Virus record (IMG/VR): IMGVR_UViG_3300032282_004143
Span: 1-42,265 of that record
Source: a virus
DNA: 42,265 nucleotides
Reading direction: 5' to 3' (one strand)
Position numbers and translations under genes: made by a program. Below the pieces are notes generated by a model. The model was not told where the DNA came from, did not search any database, and saw only the letters and a list, made by a program, of their open reading frames with translations. Shown here piece after piece: positions 22,379-41,631 of the stretch (within the stretch, counting starts at the first letter, position 1; each line of letters opens with the position of its first letter).

Positions 22379-22825
22379 ATGAAACCTATATTGGCAGTTA
22401 TGATCGGCATTAGTGGCTCTGGCAAGAGCACATATGCAAATGGATTAAAGACATCCCTCAACGCGCAACTTGTTGAGACTGATGCCATTAGACAAGAATT
22501 GACGGGTAATGCGGAAGATCAAAGCAAGAATGCCGAGGTATTCAATATTGCCAAAAAGCGTGTAAATGATTATCTATCACAAGGTAAGAATACCATCATT
22601 GATGCCACGAGCCTTACCGTTAGGGATAGAAGGGATTGGATCAAAATTGGTAAAGAAAACAACGCGGAAGTGCGTGCATATTTCATTGATACTCCTATAG
22701 ATACATGCAAGATACAGAATAAAAAGCGTCGGAGGAAAGTGCCGGAAGAAGTCATTGATAGGCAAGCGTCCAAGTTGTATCCCCCTGTAAAAGACGAAGG
22801 CTTTGACAGTGTCACGACTGTCTGA
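22379..22825 (+). CDS. P-loop kinase (polynucleotide kinase-like)
   Basis: A single-domain kinase of the AAA_33/polynucleotide kinase type. Walker A GISGSGKS lies at residues 9-16, LVETDAIRQEL holds the acidic catalytic region as in T4 Pnkp (Asp-x-x-Arg), KNTIIDATSLTVRDRRDW is the Walker B-like strand with the following Arg-rich helix, and KRRRKVPEEVIDRQ is the lid. At 148 residues it lacks the phosphatase half of T4 Pnkp. A 5'-OH polynucleotide kinase would supply 5'-phosphate ends for the RNA ligase at 29374. A nucleotide or sugar kinase remains possible. It lies 38 bases before the DNA polymerase gene. Confidence 0.82.
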   Translation: MKPILAVMIGISGSGKSTYANGLKTSLNAQLVETDAIRQELTGNAEDQSKNAEVFNIAKKRVNDYLSQGKNTIIDATSLTVRDRRDWIKIGKENNAEVRAYFIDTPIDTCKIQNKKRRRKVPEEVIDRQASKLYPPVKDEGFDSVTTV

Positions 22826-29373: not shown

Positions 29374-30390
29374 ATGGAACGCAAACTTGCATCAATCCAG
29401 AAAATAACGGAAATCCTGCCAATTGAAGGTGCGGACAAGATTGTTTGTGTAAAAATCCTTGGGTGGCAATGCGTGGCATTGAAAACGGAATTTTCCGTGA
29501 ATGACAAATGTGTATTTTTCGAGATTGATAGTGTTTTACCAATCGCGAGTTGGAACGACCATTTGCTTAAAGAACCAAATAAGCCATTGAGAATACGTAG
29601 TATAAGATTGAAAGGAACATTGAGTCAAGGTCTTGCATTGCCACTTTCTATTCTGCCACAAGGTGAATATGAAGTCGGCCAAGATGTTACACAACTAATT
29701 GGTGTTGAGAAATACGAGCCGCAAATTCCGGCAGAATTAAATGGAAAAGTAAAAGGAACTCGTCCAAGTTGGATTCCGAAAACGGATGAACCCCGAATTC
29801 AATCTTTTCCGGAGACATTGTCTGAACTCATAATGGCTGGTGATGTTGTTGGAACCATGAAAATGGATGGAAGTAGTATCACCTGTTATATAAAAAATGA
29901 TATTTTTGGAGTAACATCCAGAAATATGGAACTTATTGAAACTGACGGTAATGCATACTGGAAAGCCGTTAGAGAAAATAAAATTGAGGAAAAAATGCGT
30001 AAATATTTTGAAGGAAAAAATATTGCGGCTCAAGGTGAGTTATGCGGAAATTCTATTCAAGGAAATCGTATGGGAGAAAAGATGTTAGTTATTTATTTCT
30101 ATAATCTGTATGATATTGACGCTTGTAGATATTTGTCGGACGAGACATTGAATAATTTTACTTCTGCGTGTAATTTGAAGCGGGTTCCTATTGTGTTCAT
30201 CGGAAAATTATCAAGTGATACAACGATGAATGATTTACTTGAGAAGGCCAACAATCTCAATTATCCAAATGGGACTCCCGCAGAGGGTATTGTATGGAGA
30301 CCCAAGTCCGAGACACGAAGTAACGTATTGAATGGACGACTTTCTATAAAAACAATATCTAACAAATATTTAGAAAAGTATAAAGAATAA
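29374..30390 (+). CDS. RNA ligase (DraRnl/Rnl5-like, N-terminal OB domain)
   Basis: An ATP-dependent RNA ligase with an N-terminal OB-like domain (about 1-110), as in the Deinococcus DraRnl (Rnl5) family. The nucleotidyltransferase motifs are in order: KMDGSS (motif I, the adenylated Lys near residue 164), AAQGELCGNSIQG (motif III with the conserved Glu), EGIVWRP (motif IV) and LSIKTISNKYL (motif V). The length of 338 residues is close to DraRnl (342). Such enzymes seal 3'-OH to 5'-phosphate RNA ends. The gene has its own near-leaderless promoter. Together with the kinase and 2H phosphoesterase it could repair cleaved tRNA. Confidence 0.88.
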   Translation: MERKLASIQKITEILPIEGADKIVCVKILGWQCVALKTEFSVNDKCVFFEIDSVLPIASWNDHLLKEPNKPLRIRSIRLKGTLSQGLALPLSILPQGEYEVGQDVTQLIGVEKYEPQIPAELNGKVKGTRPSWIPKTDEPRIQSFPETLSELIMAGDVVGTMKMDGSSITCYIKNDIFGVTSRNMELIETDGNAYWKAVRENKIEEKMRKYFEGKNIAAQGELCGNSIQGNRMGEKMLVIYFYNLYDIDACRYLSDETLNNFTSACNLKRVPIVFIGKLSSDTTMNDLLEKANNLNYPNGTPAEGIVWRPKSETRSNVLNGRLSIKTISNKYLEKYKE

Positions 30391-30868: not shown

Positions 30869-31327
30869 ATGTATATAATATGTGTCATATTACTCTTATC
30901 ATTAGTTTGCAACCTGCAAGCCAGTGATATGGTGCATTCATTCAAGTCGTCTTCGTTTAGCGGCGCTAACTTTTCTGCTACACAAATGACCATAGAAAAT
31001 TTGGCACGCACGCGAAAGCAAGGTATAAGAGACCTCGCCAAATCAGAAGCACAACAGGCAGCATTACAGGCACAAAACACACCACTGAACACATTTGTCA
31101 ACAATCTACAAGCCAGAATATATTCGCAATTGGCTTCACAGGTTACTGACCAACTATTCAACTCTACTGGTCAGACATTTGGTATCATAAACCTGCAAGG
31201 CGGAGCAACTGTAACTTGGCAGAGGAATGGAGATTTTGCAACGTTGTATATAATAGATCCTGTAAGCGGCAATACTACACAGATTACCGTGCCTATAGGA
31301 TCTCTGACCCCACCACCAAACGGATGA
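30869..31327 (+). CDS. csgF: CsgF-like curli assembly factor
   Basis: In bacteria CsgF is a small secreted protein that plugs into the CsgG channel and helps nucleate curli at the cell surface. The product has a signal peptide (ICVILLLSLVCNLQA, cleavage after about residue 18), then a short extended Phe/Ser/Asn-rich N-terminus (SFKSSSFSGANFSATQ) like the CsgG-binding region of CsgF. A helix follows (LNTFVNNLQARIYSQLASQV) and a C-terminal strand region (FATLYIIDPVSGNTTQITVP) that matches the CsgF C-terminus. The length of 152 residues is close to E. coli CsgF (138). The stop overlaps the csgG start (ATGA), which supports the call. Confidence 0.85.
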   Translation: MYIICVILLLSLVCNLQASDMVHSFKSSSFSGANFSATQMTIENLARTRKQGIRDLAKSEAQQAALQAQNTPLNTFVNNLQARIYSQLASQVTDQLFNSTGQTFGIINLQGGATVTWQRNGDFATLYIIDPVSGNTTQITVPIGSLTPPPNG

Positions 31328-32127
31328 AAAAACATGTATTCCTCATTCTATCAATGTTATTTCTGGGTGGATGTGCTTCAATCAAAAGTAAGCCAAGCAT
31401 CCTAGAAGTACCAAAGACCCAAACTTCTCCATTGGAGAAAGAACTGTTGTCGTTGCCAAACATAAACGGTCCAAGAATAACAATCGGCGTTTATGGATTT
31501 GCAGACAAAACGGGAGCAAGAAAAACAGCAGATAACTATGCTTCATTCTCTGCGGCTGTAACACAAGGTGCGGAAAGTTGGCTGATAGATGCTTTGCGAA
31601 TGGCTGGCAATGGAAACTGGTTCCAAGTTCTTGAACGTGCAAGTCTTGATAATATCATCAAGGAACGCCAGCTGATCGCACAAACAAGAGAAAGCTTCCA
31701 AGGAAAGAATTCTGAAAAACTGGCACCAATGCTATTTGCAGGTATACTTGCTGAAGGCGGTATCATAGGATACGACAGCAATATTATCACGGGTGGAGCA
31801 GGGGCAAATATTCTTGGCATATCTGCAAATACACAATATCGCAAGGATGTGGTAACAATATCACTGCGCCTTGTCAGTGTGCAGACAGGAGAAATACTAA
31901 TCAGTACCGCAGTAACAAAAACAATTTCCAGCGTGGCGGTTTCAGGTAACCTATTCAAGTTCTATGAGCACGGTACAGTGCCTATGGAGTCTGAACTTGG
32001 ACTGACCGCCAATGAACCCAATACCATTGCAGTACGCAGTGCTATTGAAAAAGCCGTGGTAGACATCATCTATCAGGGTGAAAAGATGAACCTCTGGAAG
32101 TTCAAGCAAGAAAGTAAAAAACCATGA
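31324..32127 (+). CDS. csgG: CsgG-like outer-membrane secretion channel lipoprotein
   Basis: CsgG is an outer-membrane lipoprotein that forms a nonameric pore through which curli subunits leave the cell. A lipobox LGGC gives a lipidated Cys at residue 17. Family features follow: RITIGVYGFADKTGARK, the FSAAVTQGAESWLIDAL helix, WFQVLERASLDNIIKERQLI, the LLFAGILAEGGIIGYDSN-type segment and the beta region VVTISLRLVSVQTGEILIS. The 267-residue length is close to E. coli CsgG (277). The start at 31324 is chosen because it gives the lipoprotein signal and overlaps the csgF stop. I recall CsgG-type genes being annotated in some marine T4-like phages, so the gene alone may not be unique. Confidence 0.93.
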   Translation: MKKHVFLILSMLFLGGCASIKSKPSILEVPKTQTSPLEKELLSLPNINGPRITIGVYGFADKTGARKTADNYASFSAAVTQGAESWLIDALRMAGNGNWFQVLERASLDNIIKERQLIAQTRESFQGKNSEKLAPMLFAGILAEGGIIGYDSNIITGGAGANILGISANTQYRKDVVTISLRLVSVQTGEILISTAVTKTISSVAVSGNLFKFYEHGTVPMESELGLTANEPNTIAVRSAIEKAVVDIIYQGEKMNLWKFKQESKKP

Positions 32128-32984
32128 ATACACAAAACATAGTAAAGTTTATATTCTTTACAGCAGTCGTTGGATTGCTTTCAACGGCTATGGCCCAAAC
32201 AAGTGGACCTCTCGCGGCAACCGCAGGAAACTCACTGGGCAATCAAATATATGTAAATCAAATCACAACAGGTGGAGACACCACGTTCATTCAGAGCGGA
32301 GGATCAAACAGAGTCGGTTCATTTGCACTACCAAGCAACATCACTGGAGATAATATCTTCTTGGAGTTTAGACAGATTGGTAATGGAAACTCAACTGATT
32401 TCTCGATGGTCGGAGCCAACAATCTTAAATTGCTGTCTGCATTTGCAGGAAACAACAACGAACAAAGATTGTACTTCAACGGTGCCAACAATAATATGAA
32501 CTTCAAGTTTGACGGAAACGGAAACAAACTTTGGATCAACGGTGACACTACAGTATATCGTGATGCAGGAGAAAGCACAGCTACTGATAAAGCTACTATC
32601 TCTGACTCTGATATGCAAATCAAGTTTGCTGGAAACAACAACTTGTTTGCATATGCCACAACCAATGGCTTGAACAACTATCTGAAATATGATGTTACTG
32701 GAAACAGTAACAATATTAAGACAACACAGATCGGCAGTGCTGGCACAGGAAACCGCCAATCTGGTCATTATCAAGATATCGCCATCACTGGCGGCAGCAA
32801 TGATATCATGATATATCAACAAGGCACTGTTCAACAATACTTCCAATATAGTTTGATCGGAAGTAACAACGTTGTTCGTATATCACAAACAGCAACAGCA
32901 GCACCAACATTCACAGTTAACAACAATAATATGCTGGCTCCACAAGGTCCAGCAAGCGCAACAACACTCATAAGCAACCTATAA
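32124..32984 (+). CDS. Secreted Asn/Gly-rich repeat protein, curlin-like amyloid candidate
   Basis: A signal peptide (IVKFIFFTAVVGLLSTAMA) is followed by about 260 residues of imperfect repeats built on Gly-x-x-Asn turns (GSNRVG, GNGNST, GANNLK, GNNNEQ, GANNNM, GNGNKL, GNNNLF, GNSNNI, GSNDIM, GSNNVV) with alternating hydrophobic strands and Gln between them. This beta-solenoid style resembles curlin subunits (CsgA/CsgB), which have a repeating Ser-x5-Gln-x-Gly-x2-Asn pattern, but the repeats are looser and longer, so it is not a canonical curlin. It overlaps the csgG stop by four bases, so it is the probable cargo of that channel. There are no Cys residues. Amyloid formation is inferred. Confidence 0.78.
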   Translation: MNTQNIVKFIFFTAVVGLLSTAMAQTSGPLAATAGNSLGNQIYVNQITTGGDTTFIQSGGSNRVGSFALPSNITGDNIFLEFRQIGNGNSTDFSMVGANNLKLLSAFAGNNNEQRLYFNGANNNMNFKFDGNGNKLWINGDTTVYRDAGESTATDKATISDSDMQIKFAGNNNLFAYATTNGLNNYLKYDVTGNSNNIKTTQIGSAGTGNRQSGHYQDIAITGGSNDIMIYQQGTVQQYFQYSLIGSNNVVRISQTATAAPTFTVNNNNMLAPQGPASATTLISNL

Positions 32985-32985
32985 G

Positions 32986-34098
32986 ATGTATAAAAATGTT
33001 ATATTGTTTTTTGTACTATATGGAAACTTGCTTGGATTTGCGGGTAAGCTGACGGAGGTGACTGGTCCTACACAAGTTAGTAGGGCCAGCACCAAAATAG
33101 AAGGCAAGGTGGATGTTGGTGTTGAAATGAATGACACCATAGAGACCCTCAAGGCAAGAGCAGGCATAACATTTGAAGATGGTACACGAGTACAATGTAC
33201 AGAGTTCAGCAAACTGGTTATAGATGAGTTTGTGTATGATCCAAGCAGCGGCAAAGGAAAGCTTGGAATGAAAGCAACGATGGGTACGGTCAGATATGCA
33301 TCTGGATTGATCGCCAAAAATAACAAAGAAGAAGTTAGAGTAAAGACACCCACGGCATCAATATCTGTACGTGGAACAGACTTTAGCATGACGGTGGATG
33401 AACTTGGTAGAAGTCTTGTGATATTGCTACCATCTCTGCCACAATTTGGTCCTCCTGTGGTAGGAGCCATCACAGTAAGCAATGGAATGGGCACGGTTGT
33501 ATTGACCAAGGCATTTCAAGCAACAATGGTAGCATCAACGGCGGTTGTACCATCTGCACCAGTATTATTGAACTTTGAGGACGAAACAAAAGTTAATAAT
33601 ATGCTATTGATAGATACACCAAAGAACGTCACGGAGTCTGCTAAAGAAGCCAAGAAAGCATCTCCGCAGACAACAAAGGGTGACGACGAAGGATCAAATA
33701 AGAAGAAACCAGAAAGCAAGACCGCAGTAGCACAAGCCACAGCCACTCCGTCCGAAGCAACAACCGCCGCAACAACTGCTCAAACACAAGAACAGCCGCA
33801 ACAAGTAGAAACAAAGCTTGATATCAATGCCATAAAACCAGAAACAAATAAAGCTGTGATGGAGAGTATTGCAAAGAAGACAGAGACAACTATATCTGTT
33901 CCAACGACGACAACAAATAACGGCTTTACAACGGATGGAACACGAGCTATCTTATATGTATCTAATGGTAACAATGTTGTTTGGTATACACTCAAATATG
34001 ATACCAATGCCATCATTACCATATCAAACGGATCAAATGCTACGGAATATCCTCTTAACTTTGGCGGTAAACTAAAAATCAACATTATTCAGAAATGA
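32986..34098 (+). CDS. Secreted FecR-domain protein
   Basis: A signal peptide (NVILFFVLYGNLLGFAG) precedes a FecR-type domain (about residues 20-175): ITFEDGTRVQCTEFSKL, LGMKATMGTVRYASGLIAK and the hallmark VKTPTASISVRGTDFS. A Ser/Thr/Lys/Gln-rich disordered linker (about 205-285) and a C-terminal beta repeat (ILYVSNGNNVVWYTLKYD, then TISNGSNATEYPLNF) follow. FecR domains occur in signal-transfer proteins and in exported surface proteins. The protein lies in the periplasm or outside. The C-terminal Asn/Gly strands resemble the upstream repeat protein. It shares a four-base overlap with the cyclase gene. FecR next to CHASE2 cyclase is a recurrent bacterial pair. Confidence 0.85.
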   Translation: MYKNVILFFVLYGNLLGFAGKLTEVTGPTQVSRASTKIEGKVDVGVEMNDTIETLKARAGITFEDGTRVQCTEFSKLVIDEFVYDPSSGKGKLGMKATMGTVRYASGLIAKNNKEEVRVKTPTASISVRGTDFSMTVDELGRSLVILLPSLPQFGPPVVGAITVSNGMGTVVLTKAFQATMVASTAVVPSAPVLLNFEDETKVNNMLLIDTPKNVTESAKEAKKASPQTTKGDDEGSNKKKPESKTAVAQATATPSEATTAATTAQTQEQPQQVETKLDINAIKPETNKAVMESIAKKTETTISVPTTTTNNGFTTDGTRAILYVSNGNNVVWYTLKYDTNAIITISNGSNATEYPLNFGGKLKINIIQK

Positions 34099-36155
34099 AG
34101 TCTCATATACTCAAAATCTTTGGAGTTGGATTATTGATACTAACAGCACTTGTTGTTCTACGAATAAAGGATCCATATCCAATAGAAGTATTGAGACTAA
34201 AGGGACTGGACTACTATCAGCGTAAACAAGATAAGGTAAAAGGTGAGAATGTTGTAGTCGTTGAGATTGATGAAAACAGCCTTGATGCTAAAGGACAATG
34301 GCCTTGGCCAAGAAACGAACTGGCAGATGGTATCAAGAAAGCATTTGATGCTGAAGCCGCAGCTGTTGTATTGCCAGTCATATTTGCAGAGAAGGATAGA
34401 ATGAACGGCGATGCTGCCTTTGTTGAAACACTTCAGAAGTATCCTGTTATTACGGCGCAATCAGCAGCGGTCAAAGGCAAGGGTGTCCCTGTTCCAAGAG
34501 GATTGGCAACCATAGGTGGTAATGCAGATGGTTGGCTATATGATTATCCAAATGCGATTGGACCTGTAAAAGAGATAGGTGAAAATAGTGCTGGTGTAGG
34601 AATGCTACTAACAGCACCTGAACTTGATGGTGTGGTAAGAAGATTGCCGCTTGTTATACAAGTAAACAAGGAAACATATCCTACAATGCCGCTTGAAATA
34701 CTTCGTGTATTTGGAAATGAACAAAGTTATCAAGCCAAGATAAATGATGGCGGAGTGCAGGCAGTAAGAGTCAAAGGATCAAACCCAATCAACACAGACA
34801 GCAATGGACGAGTATGGATCAACTTCAAGTACAAGTTTGATAGCATATCATATACAAGCAATGATTGGAGCAAAGTAAAAGGAAAGATCGCTGTTATTGC
34901 TCTTACAGCAGAAGGCTTGGCCAACACCGTAGCAACGCCTGTTGGTACAGCATATGGACACGAAGTTAGTATGCAGACATTACAGATGCTTGTTGATGGC
35001 AATAGATTAGAAAGAAAAGCAGAGTTTGATTTGTATGAACTGGCAAGTGGAATAGTTGCCGCTTTGCTTCTTATAACAATAGCAGCATATCTTGGTTATG
35101 TTTATAATGGAGTTATTGTAGCAATACTAGTATCTGCTCCATATGCCATCGGGTTTTATCTATATAACAAAAATGGATATCTAGTTGATTATACTTGGCC
35201 AACGCTTGGATTGTTCCTTCCTTGGGTAGGTGCTATCTTTATGAGATTTGTGATGGAGTTTAAGCTCAAGCAGCAGATCAAGAAGCAGTTTGGAACATAT
35301 CTATCTCCTGCTATGGTAGAAAAACTACAACAGAACCCAGATCTGCTCAAACTTGGCGGCGATGAAAGAGAACTATCCATCATGTTCACAGATGTTCGTG
35401 GCTTTACATCCATTTCAGAACACTATGGCAAGAATGTTCAAGGTCTTACAATGATCATGAACAGATATATGACAGCAATGACCCAAGCAATTTTGGATAA
35501 CAGTGGAACATTGGACAAATACATTGGTGACGCCCAAATGGCATTTTGGAACGCGCCGCTTGATGATAAAGATCATGCCAAGAATGCCGTTAAGACCGCA
35601 CTCAAGATGTTGAAGGATCTTGATACATTCAATGCCGAGATAGCCAAGGAAGGTGTACCAGCATTTGGCATGGGACTGGGTATCAACACTGCAACAGTCG
35701 TTGTGGGTAATATGGGAAGCACGCAGCGATTTGATTACACCTGCCTTGGTGACGGTGTTAATCTGGCATCAAGACTTGAAGGTCAAAGCAAGCCATATGG
35801 AACAAGAATAGTCATTGGTCCAAAAACACACGAGTATATAAAAAATGACTACCAATGTTTTGAACTTGATTGCATAGCGGTCAAGGGCAAGAAAGAAGGT
35901 GTACATATCTATACGCTTCTTGAAAAACAACTATCGGATAGCGACTATTTCATAGTTCTGGCAGGTCATGCAGCAATGCTCAATGACTACAGAATGCAGC
36001 GTTGGGATAATGCTGTATTTCATGCTGAAGAATTGAAGCGCCAAAACAAGGAGTTGAAAAAGTACTACGAAATGATGATTGAAAGAATAGCGGAACTTCG
36101 TACACAGAATCTTGACAAAGATTGGGATGGCGTATATAGAGCAACAAGCAAGTAA
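34095..36155 (+). CDS. CHASE2-domain class III adenylate cyclase
   Basis: Residues 5-22 are a membrane anchor. Residues about 35-305 are an extracytoplasmic CHASE2 sensor (VVVVEIDENSLDAKGQWPWP, KYKFDSISY). Three hydrophobic segments follow (about 315-385), then a class III cyclase domain (about 425-610). Catalytic residues are present: FTDVRGF (first metal Asp near 432), YIGDAQMAF (second metal Asp near 479) with the Lys before it for adenine selection, DYTCLGDGVNLASRLEG with the Thr expected for adenylate cyclases, and the transition-state Asn and Arg. A C-terminal helical tail (KRQNKELKKYYEMMIERIAEL) follows. The enzyme should make cAMP in response to an outside signal. It is the fifth gene of the operon. 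Confidence 0.92.
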   Translation: MKSHILKIFGVGLLILTALVVLRIKDPYPIEVLRLKGLDYYQRKQDKVKGENVVVVEIDENSLDAKGQWPWPRNELADGIKKAFDAEAAAVVLPVIFAEKDRMNGDAAFVETLQKYPVITAQSAAVKGKGVPVPRGLATIGGNADGWLYDYPNAIGPVKEIGENSAGVGMLLTAPELDGVVRRLPLVIQVNKETYPTMPLEILRVFGNEQSYQAKINDGGVQAVRVKGSNPINTDSNGRVWINFKYKFDSISYTSNDWSKVKGKIAVIALTAEGLANTVATPVGTAYGHEVSMQTLQMLVDGNRLERKAEFDLYELASGIVAALLLITIAAYLGYVYNGVIVAILVSAPYAIGFYLYNKNGYLVDYTWPTLGLFLPWVGAIFMRFVMEFKLKQQIKKQFGTYLSPAMVEKLQQNPDLLKLGGDERELSIMFTDVRGFTSISEHYGKNVQGLTMIMNRYMTAMTQAILDNSGTLDKYIGDAQMAFWNAPLDDKDHAKNAVKTALKMLKDLDTFNAEIAKEGVPAFGMGLGINTATVVVGNMGSTQRFDYTCLGDGVNLASRLEGQSKPYGTRIVIGPKTHEYIKNDYQCFELDCIAVKGKKEGVHIYTLLEKQLSDSDYFIVLAGHAAMLNDYRMQRWDNAVFHAEELKRQNKELKKYYEMMIERIAELRTQNLDKDWDGVYRATSK

Positions 36156-37682: not shown

Positions 37683-37758
37683 GCGGTAGTAGCTCAGTTG
37701 GTAGAGCGCAATCCTTCCAAGCTTGATGTCGCAGGTTCGAGCCCTGTCTACCGCACCA
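37683..37758 (+). tRNA. tRNA-Gly (UCC)
   Basis: Seven-base acceptor GCGGTAG-type stem, D-loop with GG, anticodon loop CTTCCAA, canonical T-loop TTCGAGC and encoded CCA. One mismatch (T-C) in the anticodon stem. Confidence 0.92.
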
Positions 37759-37762
37759 ATTT

Positions 37763-37826
37763 GCACTAGGTTTGGTTTCCAACCATTCCGAAGATCCATG
37801 AGAAAAGGCTTGGACGGAGTGCACCA
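37763..37826 (+). ncRNA. Non-tRNA cassette 1 in the array
   Basis: A 64-base segment between two tRNAs, starting after the usual ATTT spacer and ending in CCA. GCACT pairs with AGTGC at its ends and a hairpin GGTT(T)GG-TTT-CCAACC follows the 5' end. It has no T-arm consensus and cannot be folded as a tRNA by eye. Confidence 0.4.
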
Positions 37827-37831
37827 TTTTT

Positions 37832-37918
37832 GGTGTCGTCGCGTAGTGGCAATCGCGGGAGACTGTAAATCTCCTGACCTAACGGTCTACATTGGTTCGA
37901 GTCCAATCGGCACCACCA
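37832..37918 (+). tRNA. tRNA-Tyr (GUA), class II
   Basis: Acceptor GGTGTCG with CGGCACC, anticodon loop CTGTAAA, a long variable arm and the canonical T-loop TTCGAGT. CCA is encoded. Confidence 0.92.
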
Positions 37919-37925
37919 TTTTTTT

Positions 37926-38000
37926 GCCGCGTAAACATAGATAGCGATGTGATAGTCTTGTAAACTATATAGGAGGGTGCATATCCCTCACGTGGCTCCA
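37926..38000 (+). tRNA. tRNA-Thr (UGU), rewired elbow
   Basis: All stems are complete (GCCGCGT with ACGTGGC; ACAT with ATGT; ATAGT with ACTAT; GAGGG with CCCTC). Anticodon loop CTTGTAA. The T-loop is TGCATAT (G55, C56) and the D-loop is AGATAGCG, with A18-G19 instead of G18-G19. Encoded CCA, U73. Confidence 0.85.
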
Positions 38001-38004
38001 TTTT

Positions 38005-38078
38005 GCGGGATTAGTTTAGGGGTAAAACGGGACTTTGCCAAGGTTCAGTCGGGGGCTCGACTCCCCCATCCCGCACCA
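38005..38078 (+). tRNA. tRNA-Gly (GCC)
   Basis: Acceptor GCGGGAT with ATCCCGC, anticodon loop TTGCCAA, T-loop CTCGACT (C54), encoded CCA. The second Gly isoacceptor of the array. Confidence 0.92.
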
Positions 38079-38084
38079 ATTTAT

Positions 38085-38162
38085 GTATGTGTGTGCCCGA
38101 AATAGATAGGGCGGTCTCTGCAAAAGACATTTATGCTGGTGCAAATCCAGTCACATACTCCA
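38085..38162 (+). tRNA. tRNA-Cys (GCA), rewired elbow
   Basis: Perfect acceptor GTATGTG with CACATAC, U73 as expected for Cys, anticodon loop CTGCAAA. T-loop TGCAAAT (G55) and D-loop with TAG in place of GG. Encoded CCA. Confidence 0.85.
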
Positions 38163-38165
38163 TTT

Positions 38166-38269
38166 CGTCGTGTAGTTCAGTGGGTAGATCGGTGCCTCAC
38201 TATGATGGCAAATGACGCCGCAAAAGGGTGATAAAGCACAGGCCGATGGTTCGAGTCCATCCACGGCGA
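38166..38269 (+). tRNA. tRNA-like gene with an insertion in the anticodon region
   Basis: Acceptor CGTCGTG with CACGGCG, a D-arm with GGG and a canonical T-arm (GATGG-TTCGAGT-CCATC) are intact, but the middle is about 33 bases too long. GTGC and GCAC close the anticodon arm and TCAC/GTGA form an inner 4-bp helix inside it. The anticodon cannot be fixed. No CCA is encoded, only A73. Confidence 0.6.
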
Positions 38270-38279
38270 ATTTATTTAT

Positions 38280-38355
38280 GGAGGTTTGGTGAAGCTAGTG
38301 CTCACGTGCCGCTGAAGACGGCGAGAAGATAGTGCAATCCTATCAGCCTCCACCA
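38280..38355 (+). tRNA. tRNA-Phe (GAA), rewired elbow
   Basis: All four arms fold cleanly. Anticodon loop CTGAAGA. T-loop TGCAATC (G55) and D-loop AGCTAGTGC (A18-G19). Encoded CCA. Confidence 0.88.
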
Positions 38356-38360
38356 TTTAA

Positions 38361-38442
38361 AGAGAGTTAAGGGTACAGCCATTGGAATATCGCAATGGGT
38401 TCATGTAGCGTAATAAGCACTCTATACCAAACACTCTCTACA
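38361..38442 (+). ncRNA. Non-tRNA cassette 2 in the array
   Basis: AGAGAGT pairs perfectly with ACTCTCT at the ends, like an acceptor stem, and CCATTG with CAATGG forms an inner hairpin with an 8-base loop. There is no T-arm consensus and the 3' end is ACA rather than CCA. It could be a very diverged tRNA or a stable RNA. Confidence 0.4.
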
Positions 38443-38448
38443 TTTTAT

Positions 38449-38525
38449 TCCCGTCGAGGAAGCTGGCGCAACCGGTGGTCTGTTAAACCATGTCGAGCTT
38501 GGATCGTAACCAAGGGCGGGAGCCA
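38449..38525 (+). tRNA. tRNA-Asn (GUU), reversed 54/58 pair
   Basis: Acceptor TCCCGTC with GGCGGGA, G73, anticodon loop CTGTTAA. T-loop ATCGTAA: U55 and C56 are kept and the D-loop keeps GG, but A54-U58 replaces U54-A58. The D-stem is weak. Encoded CCA. Confidence 0.85.
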
Positions 38526-38529
38526 ATTT

Positions 38530-38613
38530 CATTGTAACAAATGAACGTGAGGGATACGATACACCCCTGTATGTCAGGGTGCGGACGAATCTTGTGGAGA
38601 AGCCACGGCACCA
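38530..38613 (+). ncRNA. Non-tRNA cassette 3 in the array
   Basis: It contains a hairpin CACCC(C)TG-TATGT-CAGGGTG and a 3' hairpin GTGG-AGAAG-CCAC just before GGCACCA. No acceptor partner for the 3' end is present at the 5' end. It is bounded by the usual ATTT spacers. Confidence 0.4.
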
Positions 38614-38624
38614 TTTTAATTTAT

Positions 38625-38702
38625 GGCGGTCAGAGTGTGGGTAGTCAAGCACACGAACCTGTGAAGTTCGGAGGACGGGAGCAAAGCCCGTTGACCGCCC
38701 CA
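38625..38702 (+). tRNA. tRNA-His (GUG), rewired elbow
   Basis: Acceptor GCGGTCA with TGACCGC, extra G at -1 opposite C73 as is specific for His, anticodon loop CTGTGAA. T-loop AGCAAAG (A54, G55, C56) and D-loop GGGTAGTCAA with A18-G19. Encoded CCA, followed by a stray TTCCCACCA. Confidence 0.9.
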
Positions 38703-38717
38703 TTCCCACCATTTTAT

Positions 38718-38792
38718 ATAGGCGTGGTATATTGGTAGTGCAGCAGTCTCCAAAACTGCCTTATGCAGGTTCGATTCCTGCCGCCTATGCCA
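38718..38792 (+). tRNA. tRNA-Trp (CCA)
   Basis: Acceptor ATAGGCG with CGCCTAT, G73, anticodon loop CTCCAAA and canonical T-loop TTCGATT. Encoded CCA. Confidence 0.93.
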
Positions 38793-38795
38793 TTT

Positions 38796-38860
38796 CGTAA
38801 CCGACATATAGTTGGCCAAGCACAGTTAAGAGGTCTGTGTAATAAAAGCCTCGTTAATTT
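38796..38860 (+). ncRNA. Non-tRNA cassette 4 in the array
   Basis: Two small hairpins, CCGAC-ATATA-GTTGG and CACAG-(9 bases)-CTGTG, lie between tRNA-Trp and tRNA-Lys. There is no T-arm and no CCA end. It may be an independent RNA or spacer. Confidence 0.3.
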
Positions 38861-38864
38861 TAAT

Positions 38865-38943
38865 GGAAGTCAAGCTACAGTGGACGGGCACTCGACTCTT
38901 AATCGAACTATTCGTGTGGGTTCAACTCCCACGGCTTCCACCA
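38865..38943 (+). tRNA. tRNA-Lys (CUU)
   Basis: Acceptor GGAAGTC with GGCTTCC, anticodon loop CTCTTAA, a long D-loop and canonical T-loop TTCAACT. Encoded CCA. Confidence 0.9.
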
Positions 38944-38949
38944 ATTTAT

Positions 38950-39025
38950 GGTGCTTTGGCAGAGCGGATTATGCAGCGGTCTTTTAAACCGTACAAGGTG
39001 GGTTCGACTCCCACAGGCACCACCA
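38950..39025 (+). tRNA. tRNA-Lys (UUU)
   Basis: Acceptor GGTGCTT with AGGCACC, anticodon loop CTTTTAA, canonical T-loop TTCGACT. Encoded CCA. The second Lys tRNA of the pair. Confidence 0.93.
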
Positions 39026-39190
39026 TTTTTTAGCCAGAAAGTCTACCCAAAGCATATTACTTAGCGGTTTTATGTGAGGCAATTTCGAAGTCTGCCTGAT
39101 AAGTAGATTAGTATCCACTAACCAGCCGCGCCGGTTTTAAATGCGGTAAAAGTAGTCTTGTATGTAGTAGTCAAGGCGGCTAAAAATTTT
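39026..39190 (+). ncRNA. Structured cassette of about 165 bases
   Basis: TTTTTAGCC at the 5' end pairs with GGCTAAAAA at the 3' end, closing the whole segment. Inside are TTAGT-ATCC-ACTAA and CCGC-(13 bases)-GCGG. It is not a tRNA and has no reading frame. It may be a stable phage RNA comparable in position to the T4 species 1 and 2 RNAs. Confidence 0.45.
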
Positions 39191-39192
39191 AT

Positions 39193-39298
39193 CAGTGTGT
39201 GGTGAAAATATTAGACACGGGGGTCGGCAAAACCTCTGATGAAGAATGTTCTAGACAAAAACTTCATCGTATTGGTGAAAATCCTTTCGTGCTGACCA
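39193..39298 (+). tRNA. Aberrant class II tRNA-like gene
   Basis: A 7-base acceptor with three wobbles (CAGTGTG with CGTGCTG), D-arm GTG-CAC with TAG in the loop, an anticodon-like arm GGGGT-CGGCAAA-ACCTC (position 33 is G), a perfect 7-bp variable arm GATGAAG/CTTCATC and a weak T-arm with loop TGAAAAT. CCA is encoded. It may be a pseudogene or a specialised RNA. Confidence 0.5.
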
Positions 39299-39306
39299 AT
39301 TTTTAT

Positions 39307-39383
39307 AGGGTGTTAGCTCAGTTGGTTAGAGCGTCGCACTGTCACTGCGAAGGCCGCGAGTTCGAGTCTCGTACATCCTGCCA
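39307..39383 (+). tRNA. tRNA-Asp (GUC)
   Basis: Acceptor AGGGTGT with ACATCCT, G73, anticodon loop CTGTCAC and canonical T-loop TTCGAGT. Encoded CCA. Confidence 0.93.
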
Positions 39384-39387
39384 TTTT

Positions 39388-39478
39388 CTACGTTAGATAA
39401 CTGCCCTTAAGTGCGGCTAGCTGAGTGCCAGTGATTGCAAGTCTAGTAGAGGATAAGAGCGCACCTCCTTATCCATCA
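39388..39478 (+). ncRNA. Non-tRNA cassette 5, flanking the HNH gene
   Basis: GGATAAG pairs perfectly with CTTATCC around a 10-base loop near its 3' end. The rest does not fold as a tRNA. It lies just upstream of the HNH endonuclease gene and may be part of its leader or the left side of the insertion site. Confidence 0.35.
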
Positions 39479-39553
39479 ATTTATAAAAACTACATCAACT
39501 GGATATGTAAATTTGTTTACGAAAAACTCAATCCAATTGATATTTATTTGTAT

Positions 39554-40447
39554 ATGAATAAAATGATAATTACACAATTTAGTAAAGACGAAATACAATC
39601 TATAGCCAATCGTTCCAATACTTGGTATTCTTTTATGAATAATTTGGGTTATAAAAAATCTAATGGGTTATCTCGTACACTTGTAAAAAAATGGGTTGTT
39701 GAAAACGGGATTATTTTTAATCCTTCTAGAACAACCAGCCAGCCTCTATCTAAAGAAGAAGCAATCGTGAAATATTTCACAAATAAACCGTTATTTGGAA
39801 ATCCTAAAGGTCGAGTAAAATTTTATATAAAAAAATACAATTTGTTAGAAGAAAAATGTAATATATGCGGGCAAGGAACGATGTGGAATAATTTACCATT
39901 GACGTTGGAATTGGACCACATAAACGGAGAACCGACAGATAATAGATTGGAAAATTTAAGAATTCTTTGTCCCAATTGCCATCAGCAACAACCGACTACA
40001 AATAGAGTAAGAAAAGGAAGAAAACCAACCGATGATGTGGTAATGAAAATCTTTAAAGATAAAAATCCAAAAAATGTAAGACAACTTCTTAATTTTATTG
40101 GAATAGCCGATTGTAAACCAAACTACGATTGGGTATATTCAGTTTTGTATAGAAATGGTGTGGAAACTTGGAACGAAGTGTATGAAAGAAACATAAGTAT
40201 TTTAAAATTAAAATTAGCGGAAAAGAAAAAACGATACATTCACCCATCAAAAGAGGAATTGATTGGCTTGGTTGAAAAATATCCTCTGCTTGAAATAGCA
40301 AAGAATTATAATGTTAGTTCAGTTGCTGTCGCTAAACTTTGCAAAAAGTACAACATACCAACAAAACCGAGAGGATATTGGGCAAAGGTCCGATCAAAAA
40401 ATTTAAGTCCGCGTAATGGCACTGGCTACGAACCAGATTGTGCATAA
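39554..40447 (+). CDS. HNH homing-type endonuclease inserted in the tRNA array
   Basis: A free-standing HNH endonuclease. The nuclease core is CNICGQGTMWNN followed by LELDHINGEPTDNRLEN and ILCPNCHQQQPT (Cys-x2-Cys, Asp-His, Asn and Cys-x2-Cys-His), about residues 105-165. Helix-turn-helix-like DNA-binding segments flank it: an N-terminal TQFSKDEIQSIANRSNTWYS and a C-terminal KEELIGLVEKYPLLEIAKNY with VSSVAVAKLCKKYNIP. The start at 39554 follows the TATATATG context common here and avoids the structured upstream cassette. The last 14 or so codons (LSPRNGTGYEPDCA) are read from inside the next tRNA gene, whose anticodon region holds the stop. The usual family end is near PRGYWAK, so the extension is accidental. 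AT-rich composition fits a mobile gene. Confidence 0.88.
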   Translation: MNKMIITQFSKDEIQSIANRSNTWYSFMNNLGYKKSNGLSRTLVKKWVVENGIIFNPSRTTSQPLSKEEAIVKYFTNKPLFGNPKGRVKFYIKKYNLLEEKCNICGQGTMWNNLPLTLELDHINGEPTDNRLENLRILCPNCHQQQPTTNRVRKGRKPTDDVVMKIFKDKNPKNVRQLLNFIGIADCKPNYDWVYSVLYRNGVETWNEVYERNISILKLKLAEKKKRYIHPSKEELIGLVEKYPLLEIAKNYNVSSVAVAKLCKKYNIPTKPRGYWAKVRSKNLSPRNGTGYEPDCA

Positions 40448-40484
40448 CTGGATTATGAGAGTTCGACTCTCTCCGTGGACACCA
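40407..40484 (+). tRNA. tRNA-like gene overlapped by the HNH gene end
   Basis: Acceptor GTCCGCG with CGTGGAC, A73, encoded CCA and a canonical T-arm GAGAG-TTCGACT-CTCTC. The anticodon arm is irregular: CAGAT with AACTG (one A-A mismatch) around TGTGCAT, which would give UGC (Ala) with G33. It may be degenerate on the HNH side. Confidence 0.6.
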
Positions 40485-40487
40485 TTT

Positions 40488-40518
40488 TGAGTCGCAATAT
40501 GGCGACGATATATCAATT
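40488..40518 (+). ncRNA. Short hairpin cassette
   Basis: GTCGC-AATATG-GCGAC stands alone between two ATTTT spacers. It is too short for a tRNA and may be a remnant or processing signal. Confidence 0.3.
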
Positions 40519-40522
40519 TTAT

Positions 40523-40598
40523 GGCCCTATAGAATAATGGTTGAGTTCGCCGCTCTTTCAAAGCGGAGAGATGGGATCGTGACCCATTGGGGCTACCA
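40523..40598 (+). tRNA. tRNA-Glu (UUC), reversed 54/58 pair
   Basis: Acceptor GGCCCTA with TGGGGCT (two wobbles), anticodon loop CTTTCAA in a perfect stem. T-loop ATCGTGA: A54 and U58 are swapped relative to the norm while U55-C56 and the D-loop GG are kept. Encoded CCA. Confidence 0.87.
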
Positions 40599-40604
40599 AT
40601 TTGT

Positions 40605-40632
40605 TTGACAATATGCTAATTATGTGTACTGT
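40605..40632 (+). promoter_or_regulatory. Internal promoter in the tRNA array
   Basis: TTGACA (40605-40610), a 16-base spacer and TACTGT (40627-40632), just before tRNA-Gln. It restarts transcription downstream of the HNH insertion. Confidence 0.65.
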
Positions 40633-40646
40633 CAGAGCTTAATTGT

Positions 40647-40720
40647 TGACCCTTGGTGTAACGGTAGCACAGCGCACTTTGACTGCGCTTGTCATGGTTC
40701 GAATCCATGAGGGTCAGCCA
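40647..40720 (+). tRNA. tRNA-Gln (UUG)
   Basis: Perfect acceptor TGACCCT with AGGGTCA, G73, anticodon loop CTTTGAC and canonical T-loop TTCGAAT. Encoded CCA. Confidence 0.94.
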
Positions 40721-40726
40721 TTTCAT

Positions 40727-40804
40727 GGTCGTTTAGTTCATCTGGTTGAAGACACTTGCTCGACATGCAAGATTAGGTGAGTTCGATTCTCACAGCGACT
40801 ACCA
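40727..40804 (+). tRNA. tRNA-Val (GAC), with C33
   Basis: Acceptor GGTCGTT with AGCGACT, perfect anticodon stem CTTGC with GCAAG and loop TCGACAT. Read as a 7-base loop the anticodon is GAC, but position 33 is C instead of the near-invariant U. T-loop TTCGATT. Encoded CCA. Confidence 0.75.
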
Positions 40805-40807
40805 TTT

Positions 40808-40879
40808 CATTGCCACTTCAATAGGAGAGTTGAAAAAATATAGTGCAGACTGGTGTTTCCCTCAAGTCAGTCCAATGAT
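40808..40879 (+). ncRNA. Non-tRNA cassette 6 in the array
   Basis: CATTG near the 5' end pairs with CAATG at the 3' end. Inside are TTCAA-TAGGAGAG-TTGAA and GACTG with CAGTC. It ends near CCA but has no tRNA T-arm. It lies between tRNA-Val and a small ORF. Confidence 0.35.
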
Positions 40880-40891
40880 ATATTTATCAAT

Positions 40892-41077
40892 ATGATCGTC
40901 ATACGCAGAGCAGTTGATAAAAACAGAGCATACACTGTTATATTCCTAAAAGGTGAAGAACCTAAATGGATACCTACCAGTGATTATGAACATGCTCGCA
41001 TATTACAGATATATAAGCAGGACAAATATTACGAAGGCATAGAAAACGATTTTACTGATTTTGATATGGTCCAGTAG
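40892..41077 (+). CDS. Hypothetical protein, 61 aa, ending inside tRNA-Ile
   Basis: A small basic and aromatic protein with a likely beta-hairpin start (MIVIRRAVDKNRAYTVIFLK), a Trp-Ile-Pro turn and a helical middle (SDYEHARILQIYKQDKYY). The TAG stop lies at positions 8-10 of the tRNA-Ile gene, so coding and tRNA sequences overlap by ten bases. The ATG at 40892 is preferred over 40853, whose extra codons overlap a structured cassette. No family is recognised. Confidence 0.55.
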   Translation: MIVIRRAVDKNRAYTVIFLKGEEPKWIPTSDYEHARILQIYKQDKYYEGIENDFTDFDMVQ

Positions 41078-41142
41078 CTCAATAGTCAGAGCCTTCGACT
41101 GATAATCGAAAGACCACGGAGCGTAACCGTGCTGGACCACCA
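41068..41142 (+). tRNA. tRNA-Ile (GAU), rewired elbow
   Basis: Perfect acceptor GGTCCAG with CTGGACC, anticodon loop CTGATAA in a perfect stem. T-loop AGCGTAA combines A54-U58 with G55, and the D-loop AATAGTCA has A18-G19. Encoded CCA. Confidence 0.9.
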
Positions 41143-41150
41143 ATTTCTTA

Positions 41151-41178
41151 TTGACATTTCGATAAATTACTACATAGT
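41151..41178 (+). promoter_or_regulatory. Internal promoter in the tRNA array
   Basis: TTGACA (41151-41156), a 16-base spacer and CATAGT (41173-41178), about 22 bases before tRNA-Ala. Confidence 0.65.
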
Positions 41179-41200
41179 TATTCTTGTTAAGGTAAATTAC

Positions 41201-41276
41201 GGGCATATAGCTCAGTTGATAGAGCACCTGATTTGCATTCAGGGGGTCTGGGGTTTGAGTCCCCATATGTCCACCA
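41201..41276 (+). tRNA. tRNA-Ala (UGC), A19-U56 elbow
   Basis: Acceptor GGGCATA with TATGTCC, anticodon loop TTTGCAT in a perfect stem. D-loop AGTTGATA has A19 and the T-loop TTTGAGT has U56, so the usual G19-C56 pair is replaced by A19-U56. Encoded CCA. Confidence 0.9.
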
Positions 41277-41280
41277 TTTT

Positions 41281-41547
41281 CGTTCTTTTATAACATCTTT
41301 GTGGCGGAAAAAGCCTTATCAAATGGGGCTAACGCATTATCTATATGAAGAGTATAGGTAAGTTTCCGCTCTGCGGAGTAGGTAAGGTACTATGCTGAAG
41401 CTTAGGTCGGCCAACCGAAGCTACCAGAGGTATGGTTTGTAAGCCTGAATAACAATGACATTGCGAACCATTACGGTGTGACGACACCATCTGACTGAAT
41501 AACCGAAAGCGCAGAGTTAAGAATGGAGGTAATCATTATTCCTCCCA
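41281..41547 (+). ncRNA. Structured non-coding segment of about 265 bases
   Basis: There is no reading frame of note. Several stems are visible: TCCGC-TCT-GCGGA, GGTGT-GACG-ACACC, ATGGTT with AACCAT over about 35 bases, GCTT-CGG with CCG-AAGC around CCAA, and a 3' GGAGG with CCTCC followed by T-rich sequence. GCGGAAA near the 5' end can also pair with TTTCCGC. It does not match tmRNA or RNase P signatures that I know. Confidence 0.5.
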
Positions 41548-41555
41548 ATTTTTAT

Positions 41556-41631
41556 GCTGGGGTAGCATAGTGGCTAATGCAGTGCGTTTACATCGCACCT
41601 ATCAGGGGTTCGAGTCCCTTCTCCAGTACCA
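41556..41631 (+). tRNA. tRNA-Val (UAC)
   Basis: Acceptor GCTGGGG with CTCCAGT (two wobbles), anticodon loop TTTACAT in a perfect stem, canonical T-loop TTCGAGT. Encoded CCA. Last tRNA in the window. Confidence 0.92.

Follow-up and report, generated by a model that had tools for sequence, protein, structure and literature searches.

The IMG/VR virus record IMGVR_UViG_3300032282_004143, a stretch of 42,265 bases that we analyzed whole and call the window, encodes an array of transfer RNAs (tRNAs), several of which depart from the usual letters at the elbow, where the D-loop meets the T-loop. Are these genes decaying, or do they encode working tRNAs whose elbow is built in another way? To our knowledge, the pairing of U55, which becomes pseudouridine-55, with G18 is described as universal. 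At the level of sequence, in the altered genes and their counterparts elsewhere, the cloverleaves are intact, the two loops covary, orthologs switch state in concert, and the change recurs in unrelated viruses and bacteria. We consider the chances even that these are functional tRNAs with alternative, coordinated elbow contacts, kept for freedom from modification directed at U55. They are read as functional because the swap recurs in viral contigs, in arrays of Verrucomicrobia, and in the only tRNA-Cys of a Patescibacterium.

Five tRNAs of the window, all on the plus strand like the other tRNA genes and the kinase and ligase genes given below with coordinates, carry the central change. These are tRNA-Thr(TGT) (37926..38000; D-loop AGATAGCG, T-loop TGCATAT), tRNA-Cys(GCA) (38085..38162; D-loop CGAAATAGATA, T-loop TGCAAAT), tRNA-Phe(GAA) (38280..38355; D-loop AGCTAGTGC, T-loop TGCAATC), tRNA-His(GTG) (38626..38702; D-loop GGGTAGTCAA, T-loop AGCAAAG), and tRNA-Ile(GAT) (41068..41142; D-loop AATAGTCA, T-loop AGCGTAA). 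An initial annotation of the same DNA had assigned G55 and a TAG in the D-loop to these five, and the cloverleaf scan finds both in each, such that A18-G19 is present and G18-U55 gives way to A18-G55. In tRNA-Thr U54, G55, and C56 are accompanied by U58, in tRNA-Cys and tRNA-Phe residue 58 is A, and tRNA-Ile has A54, G55, C56, and U58, thereby combining A54-U58 with A18-G55 as annotated; the readings A54-A58 for tRNA-His and U54-U58 for tRNA-Thr are finer than those given before. The annotated exchange in tRNA-Ala(TGC) (41201..41276; D-loop AGTTGATA, T-loop TTTGAGT) was also recovered: G18-A19 occurs with U56, i.e., A19-U56, and U54-A58 is present. Likewise, tRNA-Asn(GTT) (38449..38525) and tRNA-Glu(TTC) (40523..40598) retain GG and have A54-U58. 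The further claim that the remaining tRNAs are canonical holds for most of them and fails for tRNA-Gly(GCC) (38005..38078), which retains GG and has C54-A58. Counted over the 16 listed tRNAs of the window, A18-G55 replaces G18-U55 in five, G19-C56 is held in 15 (tRNA-Ala being A19-U56), and U54-A58 is departed from in six (Thr, Gly-GCC, Asn, His, Glu, and Ile).

Could the altered genes be pseudogenes, their apparent pairing due to chance? Parts of the array are indeed not recognizable as tRNAs, and standard tools pass over the altered genes: ARAGORN reports 13 tRNAs in the window and misses Thr, Cys, Phe, Asn, and His, and Rfam matches Thr and Phe in lax mode only. A cloverleaf scan that requires U33 and leaves the D- and T-loop letters unconstrained adds exactly those five genes, each of which has an altered elbow. 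(A covariance model, R1, missed the window tRNA-Cys and tRNA-Asn in default mode, and both were taken from the cloverleaf scans.) At a score of at least 46 with CCA, the same scan gave no match in resampled sequence (first-order Markov; 420,108 bases). The tRNAs of the window form cloverleaves with U33 and CCA, and stems are intact in the altered ones. Identity features are retained as well, namely, G3-U70 in tRNA-Ala, U73 in tRNA-Cys, and, in tRNA-His, C73 after a possible G-1, as a G precedes the gene and can act opposite C73. Altered and ordinary genes also look like parts of one transcript, because (A)TTT lies directly 3' of 15 of the 16 listed tRNAs, altered ones among them, compared to 37 of 652 plus-strand CCA trinucleotides. 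Given the intact stems, the empty resampled control, and the covariation across hundreds of tRNAs described below, decay or misreading is scarcely credible.

The covariance alignment of the array tRNAs and their relatives bears directly on this question. Relatives were reached via the gene upstream of the array and then with a covariance model, which gave 464 aligned matches, 272 of them unique and 264 with a 7-base T-loop (8 of 272 were dropped); for one match set, the best 150 of 178 were aligned and counted. Among the unique relatives with a 7-base T-loop, with a distant group left out, 41 of 42 tRNAs with G55 have AG in the D-loop, as against 2 of 186 with U55. The lone G55 tRNA lacking AG is a misalignment (12 of 21 pairs), and the U55 tRNAs divide into 176 with GG, 8 with another sequence, and 2 with "AG" that are in truth G18-A19 with U56. 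With the distant group added (43/44 versus 2/220), Fisher's test gives a P value of 7e-46, uncorrected for shared ancestry. Within the T-loop, A54-U58 is accompanied by A60 in 16 of 16 relatives and G54-G58 by A60 in 5 of 6. The proposal that paired changes in two distant loops reflect selection rather than decay is thus supported by the covariation, and decay, contradicted by the joint behavior of 18-55 and 19-56, was rejected.

Orthologs switch between the two states in a concerted manner. Twelve anticodon families of the clade contain both. The window tRNA-Phe (A18/G55) and its ortholog in contig L053 (G18/U55) differ within the loops only at 18, 55, 57, and 60, and outside the loops only in the anticodon stem, which is re-paired. 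The reverse is seen for tRNA-Lys(CTT) (38865..38943; ARAGORN and ortholog comparison), which has GG and TTC (G18/U55) in the window and AG with TGC (A18/G55) in the relative L075, and the ortholog of tRNA-Glu in L058 has A18-G55 in addition. That the same anticodon shows both states in close relatives is also what would be expected if G18-U55 and A18-G55 were nearly interchangeable and tRNAs held to weaker or different constraints drifted from one to the other, through compensatory mutations as well as horizontal exchange, without gaining any benefit. We regard such neutral drift between two interchangeable pairs as a serious rival, unlikely as it appears to us once the remaining evidence is considered.

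A survey of other viruses shows that the same 18-55 covariation recurs both in related phages and in many further viral contigs. Three patterns, A18+G55, G18+G55, and A18+U55, were each run against IMG/VR, and the counts are samples taken among the matches listed. Cloverleaves made up 72 of 123 matches for A18+G55, 2 of 120 for G18+G55, and 89 of 123 for A18+U55. As 88 of the last 89 are truly GG, at most 1 of 123 is real, and one of the two G18+G55 cloverleaves (L262) also reads TAG. Single-change intermediates are therefore rare, and their near absence among the matches listed speaks against free drift. In the set of all loci gathered (7-base D-loops, <75% alike, n = 325, partly picked by pattern), residues 18-55 are G-U in 238, A-G in 80, G-G in 3, G-C in 2, U-U in 1, C-U in 1, and A-U in none. 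Mutual information is 0.748 bits for 18-55 and 0.255 bits for 19-56, the top two of 49 D-loop/T-loop pairs, and the maximum over 200 shuffles was 0.066; the 19-56 pair is seen as G-C, A-U, and U-A. The covariation stands, because the pairing persists after every pattern-picked tRNA has been removed (348 tRNAs of IMG/VR loci: G-U 290, A-G 54, G-C 2, C-U 1, and G-G 1). In favor of a neutral exchange, G55 with AG occurs in 24 of 727 unique tRNAs from loci picked for another, third pattern. As a separate observation, near-identical initiator-like tRNA-Met genes (CGCGGGG...) with an A18-G55 elbow are present in many viral contigs (L128, L133, L143, L153, L156, and others).

The swap is not confined to phages. 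A complete scan with the A18+G55 pattern over a genome collection (84,980 species by its description) returned 68 matching stretches and 35 cloverleaves, from Patescibacteria, Verrucomicrobia, and a few others, and a phage-only distribution was rejected on this basis. Some bacterial cases are isolated, which again suits neutral exchange. Others are dense arrays of Verrucomicrobia that hold 7 to 16 G55 tRNAs and no others (L361, L377, L380, L391, L393, L401, and L406) and stand apart from the housekeeping tRNAs. In two of these genomes, G55 occurs in 41 of 41 array tRNAs, whereas the housekeeping tRNAs sampled, 35 in the 30 loci that scored best out of 129 matches, all have the canonical elbow. 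Because such arrays cover about 16 amino acids, drift alone is unlikely to have produced this division across isotypes. Viewed as a set, the verrucomicrobial spare arrays (L391, L401, L406/L587, L380/L585-L586, L377, L393, and L361) comprise nearly all isotypes, all with G55. They resemble the trn operon of Anabaena, where 26 spare tRNAs are induced by translational stress and controlled together with rtcB (PMC10272220), in being a spare set apart from the housekeeping genes. In the Patescibacteria, the Daviesbacteria genome G045 encodes 47 tRNAs, and its sole tRNA-Cys has A18-G55. The A18-G55 elbow can therefore probably serve essential decoding. The same genome, which has no TruB match, also has C55 (T-loop TCC) with GG in 6 of 46 tRNAs (L590, L591, L592, L594, L597, and L603).

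How might such an elbow be held together? In the ordinary elbow, residue 18 is inserted between residues 57 and 58, with G18 bonded to pseudouridine-55, and the 19-56 pair forms the outer face contacted by the ribosome and RNase P (PMC4810234). In the altered tRNAs, A18 with G55 would replace G18 with U55, and the outward 19-56 pair touched by the ribosome and RNase P would remain Watson-Crick, be it G-C, A-U, or U-A; the 54-58 pair is at times A-U, G-G, C-A, or A-A. UGAAA T-loops of flavin mononucleotide (FMN) riboswitches take in an intercalated adenine (PMC3764141). Since swapped UGCAA loops together with A18 share the composition of those T-loops, we infer that A18 may intercalate beside G55 in the same arrangement. 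The common element is U-G-N-A-A accepting an adenine; the riboswitch is not a tRNA, and the likeness is one of sequence logic. Within the window, a UGNRA loop with an adenine at the intercalating position is found in tRNA-Cys and tRNA-Phe (TGCAA with A18) and not in tRNA-Thr (TGCAT), tRNA-His, or tRNA-Ile. The L-shape would thus form without pseudouridine-55.

TruB requires 53-GUUYRANYC-61 in its substrates (PMC7912444), and therefore G55 tRNAs should not be substrates of this enzyme. This supports the annotated expectation that pseudouridine-55 is impossible where residue 55 is G, as ribothymidine-54 is where residue 54 is not U. For accessory tRNAs, i.e., those of phage arrays and of the spare arrays of Verrucomicrobia, the change may have been kept for freedom from TruB, TrmA, and TrmH, a freedom that would extend to whatever reads the products of the enzymes acting on U55, U54, and G18. 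tRNAs made in a burst would thereby be usable at once. None of seven viral records tested encodes TruB. Among small bacteria with the swap, a TruB match is absent from 5 of 5 genomes examined, which incomplete genomes may account for, and none was found in G045 and G046, both of which were chosen for carrying the swap; all 14 control genomes have TruB, as do 94 of the 145 genomes from the same phylum as G045.

Several observations weigh against this reading of a coordinated elbow kept for freedom from modification. Nine of the 10 Verrucomicrobia with arrays do have TruB, so that a bypass of TruB in these bacteria is a guess. When 80 of the 145 genomes were tested, the swap occurred in 3 of 50 that lack TruB and 0 of 30 that have it (P of ~0.24), a weak link, and the three matches were judged by eye to be tRNA-Met genes. 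In the window, canonical tRNAs are the majority, and thus no general need for a bypass is visible. Finally, 18 of 297 G55 tRNAs that were not ascertained by pattern lack AG in the D-loop, with residue 56 changed too in 16 of the 18.

Alternatively, the altered elbow could protect spare tRNAs from host or rival nucleases, toxins, or surveillance that reads the ordinary elbow. RtcB is encoded in 5 of 10 fetched verrucomicrobial loci (L378, L380, L391, L405, and L406; tblastn and Pfam), Ro60/TROVE and RtcB share one contig in 4 of 10 genomes, and Band_7 is also found at the arrays, as is an AbiEii nucleotidyltransferase once, in L391. The phage of the window encodes a polynucleotide-kinase-like protein (22379..22825; AAA_33, PHROG polynucleotide kinase) and an RNA ligase (29374..30390; PF09414), here noted as context only, and it has been proposed that jumbo phages provide tRNAs to counter attacks on these molecules (PMC7824862). 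The attack named in that source hits the anticodon loop, however, which elbow changes leave unaltered. Moreover, a role in RNA repair would predict more RNA ligases in swap-bearing viral contigs, and this is not seen: of 19 swap-bearing contigs, 6 encode the PF09414 ligase and 3 encode RtcB, versus 8 and 1, respectively, of 15 contigs that lack the swap. A tie between the swap and RNA ligases in phages is thus not supported, as there is no enrichment in viral contigs with G55, and colocation with RtcB and Ro60 is shown in Verrucomicrobia only. This argues against a simple defense story, and we consider escape from nucleases or toxins improbable. TruB independence fits better, as hinted by the small bacteria, but this is suggestive only and statistically weak. 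Going further, we tentatively entertain the idea that A18-G55 marks a second natural tRNA repertoire, a spare translation kit of phages and of bacterial Ro60/RtcB repair loci that would work without, and be invisible to, the machinery by which the host modifies or reads the elbow.

It is also conceivable that the altered RNAs do not serve translation, acting instead as decoys or as dedicated donors of amino acids in the manner of the cell-wall tRNA-Gly set of staphylococci. In Staphylococcus, altered D- and T-loops accompany diversion from EF-Tu, and the D-loop GG of the nonproteinogenic tRNA-Gly is replaced by UU or CU (PMC4052509). GG is replaced in the window as well, but by A18-G19, and the isotypes are Thr, Cys, Phe, His, and Ile rather than Gly with UU or CU. 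Many isotypes are affected, not one, anticodon loops and identity features are retained, and the only tRNA-Cys of G045 has this elbow; a nontranslational function is accordingly very improbable. The staphylococcal tRNA-Gly presumably has a GUGC T-loop.

Compared to the canonical bacterial elongator tRNA (RF00005, matched in many cases), the altered tRNAs have in common the cloverleaf, U33, the encoded CCA, and the anticodon and identity features, and they differ by A-G at 18-55 and, in some, at 54-58 or 19-56. A purine-purine 54-58 pair like that of the window tRNA-His characterizes the A54/A58 tRNA-Ala of insects and mammals, a eukaryotic form that is tied to R15/A48 and said in that source to be absent from bacterial and archaeal tRNAs (PMC7566577). 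The window has A54-A58 in tRNA-His only, and its tRNA-Ala has U54-A58. tRNAs that lack GG and TPsiC are already known, namely, tRNA-Pyl and mitochondrial tRNAs (PMC7609411). A coordinated A18-G55 elbow common to whole sets of tRNAs was not found in searches of an open-license library, which falls well short of the full literature. Older work on elbow selection, reportedly from the Steinberg group, could contain an A18-G55 elbow.

The A18-G55 elbow looks like a genuine second way of building a tRNA. As a natural and recurring replacement, it makes the purpose of pseudouridine-55 directly testable. For annotation, it means that low-scoring "degenerate" tRNAs of phages and Verrucomicrobia, such as the five that ARAGORN missed here, are real, and for tRNA engineering it offers an elbow on which the customary modification enzymes are not expected to act.

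The window belongs to a T4-like lake phage, with a UvsX-like recombinase, a DnaB-like helicase, a DNA polymerase, and a clamp loader (PHROGs). Its polymerase shares 78 to 86% identity with those of ten IMG/VR contigs and 41% with the polymerase of Microcystis phage Mel-JY01, the nearest named relative, in which 42.5 kb examined contain one annotated tRNA; we found the swap in no named phage. The array spans 37,683 to 41,631, behind a small holin-like gene. Its members with canonical elbows, detected by both ARAGORN and the cloverleaf scan, are tRNA-Gly(TCC) (37683..37758), tRNA-Tyr(GTA) (37832..37918), tRNA-Trp(CCA) (38718..38792), tRNA-Lys(TTT) (38950..39025), tRNA-Asp(GTC) (39307..39383), tRNA-Gln(TTG) (40647..40720), and tRNA-Val(TAC) (41556..41631). 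In addition, tRNA-Val(GAC) (40727..40804; ARAGORN) has a canonical T-loop, and a tRNA-like gene of low score (26-27 bits) at 40407..40484 has the canonical TTC.

Other features of the region deserve mention. The array is split by an HNH-endonuclease-like open reading frame (39425-40447) whose matches fall under the Pfam cutoffs, and the segment upstream of the array (31303-36155) encodes CsgG curli-export family, FecR-domain, and CHASE2 plus adenylate/guanylate-cyclase proteins, an odd cargo for a phage. In a 121-base tRNA-Gln-like gene (L061:6036-6156, L065 and L066:13011-13131, and L069:15583-15703), the anticodon arm contains a long insertion resembling, by eye, part of a second tRNA. Within the array, 38166-38269 encodes a tRNA-like RNA with a D-arm, a T-arm, and a closing stem and without CCA, in which a conserved insert (~CTATGATGGYAAA.GACRCCG.AAAAG) replaces the anticodon loop. 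It aligns in 11 sequences (alignment A7: the window with L047, L051, L052, L056, L059, L062, L065, L068, L077, and L540) at a mean column identity of 79% and is possibly an unrecognized noncoding RNA.

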